Positions 9,333 to 24,313 of a stretch of 64,000 nucleotides of DNA are shown in pieces (the first letter of the stretch is position 1; the number at the start of each line of letters is the position of its first letter). The notes beneath the pieces were generated by a model. That model was given only the letters and a program-made list of their open reading frames with translations. It did not search any database and was not told the DNA's origin. A program made the position numbers and the translations under genes. This DNA comes from Luteolibacter luteus (GTDB taxonomy: Bacteria; Verrucomicrobiota; Verrucomicrobiia; Verrucomicrobiales; Akkermansiaceae), in the NCBI RefSeq assembly GCF_012913485.1, contig NZ_CP051774.1, forward strand, positions 1 to 64,000. Reading direction: 5' to 3'.

Positions 9333-9373
9333 TCCCCGGGAGCGCGGAGGCTCCGCCCCGCAGAGCGGTCCCT
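9333..9373. repeat. left 41-nt inverted REP-like palindrome flanking the RAYT gene
   Basis: This 41-nt segment is repeated in inverted orientation at 10108-10148 with a single mismatch. It contains an internal palindrome (GCGGAGGCTCCGC) able to fold into a hairpin. Palindromes flanking a RAYT gene are the expected substrates (REP/REPIN) of that transposase. Confidence 0.8.
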
Positions 9374-9454: not shown

Positions 9455-10045
9455 CTAGTCCACCCTCTCCCGATAGGCCGCGCTTCCCCAGCGCCATTCG
9501 GCAGGACTCGCGCACAGCTTCGCCCGGACAGGATTGTTCCGGATGTATGCTCTCGCATCGTGAAAATGATCAAGGTCCCGAATGTACCGATCATGGTAGT
9601 CCTCTGCCCAGACGTTACCGGCACTGCCCCGCTTCCGATGGATCGCGTGTGCCGTGTAGGTCTTCCAGCGTCGAACGATGTCCCCGAGTGATGCCCCGGG
9701 AAGACACGCGATCAGAACATGCACGTGGTTTGGCATGATGCACCATTCGAGCAATCGATAGTGGTTGCCATCGCCATGCAGGAGAGCTTCCTGAACCGTC
9801 GCCGCATGGTCATCACTGCCAAGCAAGCACGAGCCGTGGCCTGCATCCTCGTAGACTGCGATCTGCCGGCGAAGCTGCAAGTCGCCGCCCTTGGTCCCTT
9901 GGAGCTCGCGTTTCCAACATTCGATAACCTTCCGCGGCAATGAATCGGCCAGCCGGAATGTCAGTGCCTGCAACTCACCCGGCGCATCCAGATGGGGAAG
10001 GTAGCCACGAGAATGCCAACCCTTGTGAAGCGGACGCCGATCCAT
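9455..10045 (-). CDS. REP-associated tyrosine transposase (RAYT, TnpA_REP family)
   Basis: A 196-residue Y1-type HUH transposase related to IS200/IS605 TnpA. The metal-binding HUH motif is MPNHVHVL (His107, His109), and the likely nucleophile is Tyr150 in EDYHDRYIRD. The family hallmarks RGYLPHLD near the N-terminus and YIRNNPVRAKL near the C-terminus are present. Length is normal, so the gene appears intact. RAYTs cleave and join single-stranded REP palindromes and usually occur as single-copy domesticated genes flanked by REPs. Here 41-nt inverted repeats lie on both sides, consistent with a functional REP-RAYT unit. Confidence 0.9.
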   Translation of the reverse strand: MDRRPLHKGWHSRGYLPHLDAPGELQALTFRLADSLPRKVIECWKRELQGTKGGDLQLRRQIAVYEDAGHGSCLLGSDDHAATVQEALLHGDGNHYRLLEWCIMPNHVHVLIACLPGASLGDIVRRWKTYTAHAIHRKRGSAGNVWAEDYHDRYIRDLDHFHDARAYIRNNPVRAKLCASPAEWRWGSAAYRERVD

Positions 10046-10107: not shown

Positions 10108-10148
10108 AGGGACCACTCTGCGGGGCGGAGCCTCCGCGCTCCCGGGGA
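10108..10148. repeat. right 41-nt inverted REP-like palindrome flanking the RAYT gene
   Basis: Inverted partner of 9333-9373 (40 of 41 positions). It lies 62 bases upstream of the RAYT start and carries the hairpin GCGGAGCCTCCGC. Confidence 0.8.
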
Positions 10149-17863: not shown

Positions 17864-18295
17864 GGTCCACTAAATCGGTCAGGCGAAAGGTAGGGTCGCC
17901 CCCCGGCCGACTGTGGTGCGGCCCGCATCACCGAACCACTCGCGGGGCGCTTGTCCCTACCTTTGAATGACGAATGGATGATCCCGCGATTCGGCCCATG
18001 CCGCCAAAGTCCGACGCTCATAGAGCGCCGCTACATTTTCACCCTGACCGCTCCTGCGGAGCATCCCGCGGAACCTACTTCTTCACCTTCGGAAGCCGCG
18101 GGTGCATCGGAGGATCCTCTCACCACGCTCCTTCGGAGCGCTCCGAAAGAAAATGTAGCGTCGGTCTATGACCGTCGCAAACTCGCGGCATCAGCCGCAT
18201 CGGGGGATCATCGATTCTCTAACAAGTTCCAGCTGATCCGATCTCATTGCCCGGAGGGTCCAGCTGATCCGGTCTCATTGCCCGGAGGGCAAATA

Positions 18296-18334
18296 GCCAA
18301 TAGCCGGTGGTCGAGCGCAGCGAAAACCACCGGT
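18296..18334 (+). repeat. left arm of island 1 (39 nt)
   Basis: Perfect inverted partner of 18510-18548. The arm also folds on itself through CCGGTGGT / ACCACCGG. It differs at one base from the equivalent arm of island 2 (GCGCAGCG here, GCGTAGCG there). Confidence 0.85.
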
Positions 18335-18509: not shown

Positions 18510-18548
18510 ACCGGTGGTTTTCGCTGCGCTCGACCACCGGCTATTGGC
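18510..18548 (-). repeat. right arm of island 1 (39 nt)
   Basis: Perfect reverse complement of 18296-18334, including the compensating base (CGCTGCGC) that keeps the pairing intact. Confidence 0.85.
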
Positions 18549-18602
18549 TGTCACCCCTCCGGGGCATGAAATGCGGGCTAGGAAGGTGCGGCGACCACTC
18601 CC

Positions 18603-18624
18603 GGACAAGCGGGGGCGCTTGTCC
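18603..18624. repeat. strong hairpin at the right end of island 1
   Basis: GGACAAGCG and CGCTTGTCC pair over nine bases around a GGGG loop. It lies 69 bases before the LysM gene. It lacks a T-run, so it is more likely part of the repeat family than a terminator. Confidence 0.6.
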
Positions 18625-18692
18625 CTACCTTCCAGAACCCACTTCCTTCCGATTCCCTTTGCGGGAAATGCCCGCTTCGCTATCCTGCCAAC

Positions 18693-23599: not shown

Positions 23600-23729
23600 T
23601 TCCCGTGCTCCGCAGGAGCTGTTGGAAAGAGAATGTAGCGGCGGTCTATGACCGTCGGACTCTCGCGGCATCAGCCGCATCGGGGGATTTTCGACAAACG
23701 CTTGCGTCCAAGGCCCCTCCGGGGCCTTA

Positions 23730-23768
23730 GCCAATAGCCGGTGGTCGAGCGTAGCGAAAACCACCGGT
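23730..23768 (+). repeat. left arm of island 2 (39 nt)
   Basis: Perfect inverted partner of 23948-23986. It is one base different from the island 1 arm. Confidence 0.85.
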
Positions 23769-23947
23769 CAGGTCGGAGGCGATATTGAACCCCGGCAGGG
23801 GTTCCAGCGCGCGAGAAGTCACCTCAAGATCCCCGATCCGCAACTACCCGGGAACTCCTTCGGCATCACGGATCTCCCGCAATTTCATCCGGGCATCGGG
23901 GCGCATCGCTGGAACCCCGTCCGGGGTCCCATTCACACTCCATCTCT

Positions 23948-23986
23948 ACCGGTGGTTTTCGCTACGCTCGACCACCGGCTATTGGC
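23948..23986 (-). repeat. right arm of island 2 (39 nt)
   Basis: Perfect reverse complement of 23730-23768, carrying the compensating base (CGCTACGC). Confidence 0.85.
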
Positions 23987-24040: not shown

Positions 24041-24313
24041 TGATCCCCGATGCGGCCCGTGCCGCCAATCACCGACGGTCATAGACCGACGCTACATTTT
24101 CCTTCGGACCGCTCCGGAGGAGCGTAGGAGGTAAATCCATCGATGCGGCCAGTGCCGCCAATCACCGACGGTCATAGACCGACGCTACATTTTTTATCCT
24201 GATCGCTCCGGAGGAGCGTGGGAGGTGAATCCATCGATGCGGCCCGTGCCGCCAATCACCGACGCTCATAGAGCGCCGCTACATTTTTGTTAGGGCGCTC
24301 CGGAGGAGCGTGT
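24041..24313. repeat. three tandem ~90-nt hairpin units
   Basis: Three direct copies begin near 24045, 24138 and 24231. Each has a GCGGCC...GCCGCC palindrome, a hairpin (CGGTCATAGACCG twice, CGCTCATAGAGCG once), the word GCTACATTTT, and a GCTCCGGAGGAGC hairpin. The third copy shows a paired base flip in the stem that preserves complementarity. Confidence 0.8.

Follow-up and report, generated by a model that had tools for sequence, protein, structure and literature searches.

Two versions of a GTAG-tagged REP hairpin that differ by one turned base pair, and the composite islands that carry them in Luteolibacter luteus

The three tandem units at positions 24041-24313 of the window, by which we mean the first 64,000 bases of the one-contig genome of Luteolibacter luteus (6,412,079 bases), are copies of a GTAG-tagged REP element; such elements are known as small mobile hairpins of bacteria. 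They come in two stem versions, G-C or C-G at one turned base pair. It is likely that these REP hairpins are handled by a RAYT, that the turned pair saves the short hairpin and disfavors a long stem, and that the islands carrying them stand on the end repeats of an IS200-like transposase. RAYT binding and cutting, mobility, and the reason for mixed ends are what we infer. The RAYT would bind the REP hairpin as single-stranded DNA and cut beside GTAG, and either G-C or C-G at the turned pair would preserve the short hairpin. In related genomes, the mobile unit would consist of two facing REPs (a REPIN), its ends mostly of different versions. The turned pair would thus retain each short hairpin as the putative RAYT substrate, and it would add two mismatches to the competing long stem expected from an inverted pair of equal REPs. 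In the window genome, islands with REP edges, partly tandem-multiplied, would have spread around the IS200-like gene.

The sequence-only reading of this DNA had described three tandem units of about 90 nt with two stem variants. This was borne out, with CGGTCATAGACCG occurring twice and CGCTCATAGAGCG once at a spacing of 93 and 94 nt, and so was the presence of the same two variants in an island near 18015 and 18163. In the window, CGGTCATAGACCG matches at 24076-24088(+), 24169-24181(+), 18162-18174(-), and 23642-23654(-), the last of which was absent from the earlier list, and CGCTCATAGAGCG matches at 24263-24275(+) and 18015-18027(+). The stem of the units is CGSTC / GASCG with an ATA loop, and past a mismatch, A.A or A.C, two outer pairs follow. 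On the minus strand, the core reads GTAG-CGtCGGTC-TAT-GACCGtCG or GTAG-CGgCGCTC-TAT-GAGCGtCG, that is, a GTAG tag followed by an imperfect palindrome, with predicted DNA folding energies of -5.3 kcal/mol for the GGTC form and -7.0 kcal/mol for the GCTC form. The REP hairpins are located at 24073-24095 (unit 1, G-C type, GTAGCGTCGGTCTATGACCGTCG), 24166-24188 (unit 2, G-C type), and 24260-24282 (unit 3, C-G type, GTAGCGGCGCTCTATGAGCGTCG), all on the minus strand.

Each unit contains two extra hairpins, GCGGC-n4-GCCGC and GCTCC-n3-GGAGC. The former is found in unit 1 as GCGGC-CCGT-GCCGC at 24052-24065 (counterparts at 24145-24158 and 24239-24252), the latter as CGCTCC-GGA-GGAGCG, written CGCTCCGGAGGAGCG, at 24110-24124 (counterparts at 24204-24218 and 24296-24310). 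Across the 61 copies found in the window genome (see below), the stems of both are conserved and their loops are variable. We rejected compensated changes in these hairpins, as the two stems show 3.1% and 3.6% changes per site with only one two-sided cell. The arms of the C-G version of the REP (CGCTC/GAGCG) are identical to those of the third hairpin (CGCTCC/GGAGCG); owing to these equal arms, the predicted fold of unit 3 allows the REP at 24260-24282 to pair with the third hairpin.

We determined the distribution of the two versions over the window genome. Exact copies of CGGTCATAGACCG number 19, compared with 0 for the reversed control, and TCATAGANNGNCGCTACATTTT with at most three mismatches, permitted in the right arm and tail, yields 61 copies compared with 1. 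The copies were read again allowing up to five substitutions, and 60 of the 61 (27 + 33) deviate from GTAGCGNCGNNCTATGNNCGNCG at no more than one position. At the flipped position, 36 copies have C-G and 21 have G-C, and the remaining 4 are unpaired, two with G-G and two with C-C. Counting pairs by script, we thus found the position paired in 57/61 copies, whereas shuffling one side gave a mean of 32.3 and a maximum of 45. The change from G to C on one side of the stem that is matched by C to G on the other, as noted from the sequence, is therefore real. Covariation, for which that reading had asked a test over all genomic copies, is confined to the flipped pair among the freely tested positions. 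At the stem mismatch (position pair 7-21), 39 copies have G.T, which is a wobble, 21 have T.T, and 1 has G-C. It had further been proposed that unpaired stem changes as frequent as loop changes would argue against a role for the hairpin. Here, the outcome is equivocal: broken stem pairs amount to 8/427 (seven pairs) and changed loop letters to 2/183, and the comparison is indecisive because loop and stem are equally conserved. At one locus (L011; 6,356,021-6,356,090), copies of the hairpin core in its C-C broken form follow one another in a short tandem array with a 14-base period.

Both states are also present in related genomes. A core pattern with only three free position pairs (the flipped pair, its neighbor, and the mismatch) is matched in 33/195 genomes of the same family, our own included, and in 6/16 genera. 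With the reversed control, most of the 195 genomes had no match and the rest had one or two, so a lone match in a genome may be due to chance. We analyzed 257 listed copies from 24 related genomes, which derive from two pattern listings (six genomes from the second) and exclude the copies of the window genome as well as three rows unlike the family (G078, G141, G155). The flipped position reads G-C in 154 of these and C-G in 88; a further 4 have some other standard pair, and 11 are broken there. It is thus paired in 246/257 listed copies, compared with 162.8 in within-genome shuffles (maximum 186). The neighboring free pair is broken in 30 of the 257 listed copies (227 paired, 224.4 when shuffled, S.D. 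1.3), and neither this pair nor the mismatch position (198 versus 196.6, S.D. 1.9) shows clear covariation in this set. As one pair with two states is common to many genomes, the flip, judged from these alignments, is one old two-state polymorphism of the hairpin family. With two states of such age and wide occurrence, the three tandem units provide no independent evidence. The earlier argument that a stem kept despite sequence change matters consequently stands insofar as the flip is paired well above shuffles, both in the window genome and in relatives, but it has to rely on a single covarying pair. Its suggestion that the hairpin may act as single-stranded DNA finds support in the available text of Corneloup et al. 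2021 (PMC8266576), in which sequences of this kind serve as hairpins recognized by a RAYT.

The hairpin may extend beyond this family. A search for its 24-letter core that permitted either state gave at least 120 stretches in genomes of named species, a set that may overlap the genomes of other relatives. The titles of the 80 loci listed (L150-L229) name Verrucomicrobiota in 59 cases, Acidobacteria or Terriglobia in 17, one Betaproteobacteria assembly in 3, and a Bacteroidetes assembly in 1; these labels are record titles as given, nearly all of metagenome assemblies. Both stem states are present under the Verrucomicrobiota and Acidobacteria labels.

We next consider how the two versions are combined. 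Among 73 genomes of one related genus that were searched for two-REP units, 18 contain 124 exact units, and the 75 of these REPINs that were listed in full, from 13 genomes, were used for analysis. We found 53 of the 75 to be mixed, 15 to be G-C/G-C, 5 C-G/C-G, and 2 G-C/G-T; permutation within genomes gave a mean of 36.2 mixed units and a maximum of 51. The excess persists with one unit per inner flank (40/62 compared with 29.7 expected, P 0.002) and when the richest genome is left out (29/48 versus 22.5, P 0.018), with the proviso that such permutation P values are too small because the copies are related by descent. Mixed ends are found in 28/32 units of at least 100 nt and in 25/43 shorter units, and one genome (G183) holds equal G-C units exclusively (4/4). 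Over the 75 listed REPINs, the flipped position is paired in 150/150 cases inside the REPs and in 42/150 end to end. In the relatives, 12/24 inverted REP pairs are mixed (8.0 expected, P 0.049), in a set that overlaps the 75 REPINs. Same-strand neighbors at most 120 bases apart are alike instead, with 1/16 mixed and 7.6 expected (P 0.0003). Thus, in the related genus, the two stem versions are often the two ends of one mobile unit. No mixed-end excess was found in the window genome, where 6 of the 13 innermost pairs spanning islands are mixed, and no clear excess in the named-species set (17/37 pairs mixed, 14.5 expected, P 0.18). The inverted pairs of the window genome, with GTAG facing outward, are 214-695 bases apart and mostly enclose other hairpins (the B hairpins described below), compared with a REPIN criterion of about 130 nt.

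These data bear on a neutral origin of the flip, in which quasipalindrome correction, a hairpin-templated repair, copied a mutation from one arm to the other, and transposition and recombination later spread the two versions. This scenario would account for a change confined to one pair with two states, and the broken forms (4/61 in the window genome, 11/257 listed in relatives) could be its intermediates. It also agrees with a weak tree of the flanks, into which 60 of the 61 copies were entered and which requires at least 10 version switches for 56 copies, below the 13-20 of shuffled data and above one. It leaves unexplained, however, why opposite ends are joined in REPINs when same-strand neighbors are alike, and why the two versions have different inner flanks: ATG follows 31/63 C-G ends, whereas CTG, CTA, or CAC follows 52/85 G-C ends. 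We regard a purely neutral flip as possible, on the doubtful side. The same flank difference may hint that a RAYT reads the two versions differently, as a left and a right end, with the effect on the long stem being a by-product. In the available text of PMC8266576, y REPs are mixed with z REPs in Escherichia coli units, in keeping with such a reading, but TnpA(REP) is reported to act on y, z1, and z2 alike, and 20/75 of our listed REPINs have two equal ends. Distinct left and right ends thus remain a tentative alternative to the reading we prefer, in which the turned pair acts on folding.

We calculated the DNA folding of 51 units, a set that includes some pairs nested in tandem arrays. The 37 mixed units average -28.6 kcal/mol and reach -35.6 kcal/mol once their ends are equalized by a two-base swap. 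The predicted probability of the long stem is 0.62 in mixed and 0.91 in equalized units, and that of the short hairpin rises from 0.01 in equalized to about 0.14 in mixed units, with the long stem still the favorite in most of the latter. By this calculation, mixing the ends would weaken the long stem without abolishing it, given a loss of about 7 kcal/mol and yet a probability of 0.62.

We searched for the enzyme that could act on these hairpins. The window genome encodes five Y1 transposases, one of which scores above the RAYT model cut-off (REP_Tyr_transpos NF047646, 84.2 bits, cut-off 80). This RAYT-like gene, at 9455-10045(-) with an inferred start codon, belongs to another subfamily, and it is bordered by its own 34-base flanking repeat at 9338-9371(-) and the inverted partner of this repeat at 10110-10143(+). 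Its protein is about 25% identical to RAYTs that adjoin REPs of the present kind. The sequence-only reading had proposed to test cleavage of the units by the RAYT protein; we rejected this gene as their partner on account of its distant subfamily and its own repeats. Its flanking repeats recur past the contig end at 6,367,665, 6,367,963, and 6,379,029, within 216 kb scanned. No partner RAYT for the REPs was found in the window genome, which is an estimated 97.6% complete, so that the gene may have been missed. In other genomes, one RAYT subfamily (56-77% identical to the protein of locus L059) lies within about 170 bases of such REPs at 4/5 loci, namely L058, L059, L065, which is from the genus of the window, and L193, the exception being L060. 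At L059, the REPIN to the left of the RAYT gene is mixed.

A role of the hairpins as RNA at transcript 3' ends, as terminators or stabilizers, was also considered. The ten outer unit edges closest to a predicted gene all face the stop codon of that gene (19/33 edges face a stop overall), and one of the versions allows wobble G-T pairs, as could be expected for RNA. There is, however, no terminator-like site (a GC hairpin with a direct T run) in 24041-24313, and the region contains 7 such sites compared with 5.4 +- 2.3 when shuffled. No Rfam family scores above threshold in the window, the best weak match in the island of the three units being malK-III at 23864-23936(-) with 22.6 bits against a cut-off of 50. 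An RNA function is thus improbable, and the GTAG tag and the RAYT neighborhood would point to a function as DNA.

The REPs form the edges of composite islands. In these, REPs are outermost, single or in tandem, with GTAG facing outward, and they enclose a pair of B hairpins 163-211 bases apart. The island carrying the three units has a G-C type REP hairpin at its left edge (23635-23657(+)) and an inner inverted pair of B hairpins, with the left arm, GGTGGTCGAGCGTAGCGAAAACCACC, at 23740-23765(+) and the right arm at 23951-23976(-). The other island of the window contains REP hairpins of C-G type at 18012-18034(-) and of G-C type at 18155-18177(+), together with B arms at 18306-18331(+) and 18513-18538(-). 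A third repeat type, GGTAGGG...CGCTTGTCCCTACCTT, adjoins the islands at 17885-17964 and 18600-18632 and forms part of their edges, which gives the islands the look of mosaics assembled from three or more palindromic families. The B hairpin has 43 matches in the window genome, and an IS200-like gene at 6,331,237-6,331,683(-) sits between REP-free B pairs. Relatives of this gene in two other genomes are likewise bordered by B repeats on either side. The islands are thus built on the B end repeats of an IS200-like transposase other than the RAYT. A tandem run of CCGGGCAATGAGACCGGCCCTGTCT units adjoins a B pair at 6,332,500-6,332,700.

Islands are crowded around this transposase. An arc of about 123 kb, from 6,313,000 to 24,400 across the contig end, surrounds the IS200-like gene and holds 56/61 REPs and 41/43 B hairpins; by our own gene calls, the 56 REPs are intergenic or at most slightly overlap a gene edge. 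The genes of the cluster are collinear in relatives. Nine relatives with both neighbors lack the island at about 6,326,955-6,327,543, having 24-47 bases in place of about 590, and a 2-kb block with the transposase is missing in nine relatives with both neighbors aligned, where 24-108 bases are found. With collinear genes and with one island and the transposase block missing in relatives, the islands appear to be insertions into an old chromosome. An empty site could not be demonstrated for either of the two islands in the window, as their flanking neighbors do not occur together in relatives. Several other explanations for the clustering were rejected. It is not linked to the origin, as dnaA lies at 1.041 Mb and the cluster begins at 6.31 Mb, crosses the contig end, and stops at 24 kb. 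Nor is it an acquired island, since G+C and third-position G+C of the cluster genes are not odd and the genes are collinear in relatives, and the three units had no match in plasmid records, contrary to plasmid transfer. Local insertion is not general in this genome, given that the end repeat of a related transposase (4.814 Mb) is spread over 22 matches, five of them at its own gene. A recent burst is contradicted by the 20 B pairs, which differ by 14.8% on average (4.9-22.3%); the decay over distance is weak (rho 0.195, P 0.057).

Taken further, the one turned pair could be an end-identity switch by which each REP stays foldable and the two ends are kept from folding together, a two-state code written into the same 23-24 letter hairpin in two labeled phyla, with islands in the window genome multiplied almost only within about 60 kb of the IS200-like transposase, as if insertion were local. 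We put this forward as a speculative extension. The system offers a clean case for the preference for mixed dimers, with one pair in two states that is paired inside the REPs and lost between the ends. RAYTs with their own REPs in relatives make the role of mixed ends testable, as the crowding of islands around one transposase does for local insertion.

We compared our REPs with known systems. Among open papers, Di Nocera et al. 2013 (PMC3733652) was the only pertinent title on REPs or RAYTs in Verrucomicrobia, and none was found on RAYTs with local clustering. The available text of that study describes GTAG REPs as short, intergenic palindromes in single, paired, and grouped copies, with Opitutus terrae (Verrucomicrobia) rich in such repeats. 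It reports subfamilies with alternative complementary stem residues and heterodimers, that is, REP pairs with different stems, which were suggested to avoid large hairpins and their removal; the preference for mixed dimers is said there to lack an obvious explanation. The GTAG tag, the palindrome, intergenic copies, complementary stem variants, and mixed pairs are common to both systems. Complementary stem variants and mixed dimers were thus already published in 2013, and what we add is the measured contrast at one position between pairing inside REPs and between ends, which, like the present sequence, was not met in the text available. Most GTAG families there are genome-wide, GTAG-23 of T. 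roseum being the exception, whereas the present copies are clustered.

The E. coli REPs y, z1, and z2, which form BIMEs and are acted on by TnpA(REP), likewise have two inverse versions, a required GTAG, and a conserved mismatch in the available text of PMC8266576. Here, in contrast, the versions differ by one turned pair, the mismatch, which is T.T or G.T when read on the GTAG strand, occupies one position, and no partner RAYT was found in the present genome. REPINs of Pseudomonas fluorescens SBW25 (Bertels and Rainey 2011, PMC3116915) share inverted REPs with a spacer and compensatory changes. The accessible portion of that paper stresses a long hairpin of the whole REPIN with compensation across its two sides, whereas here compensation occurs inside each REP and the long stem is broken. 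Finally, TIRYTs, transposases with terminal inverted repeats (PMC3733652, as far as its available text goes), resemble the IS200-like gene that is flanked by B hairpins in three genomes, and the RAYT-like gene at 9.5 kb likewise has its own flanking repeats. What sets the present case apart is that composite islands combine B pairs with GTAG REPs.
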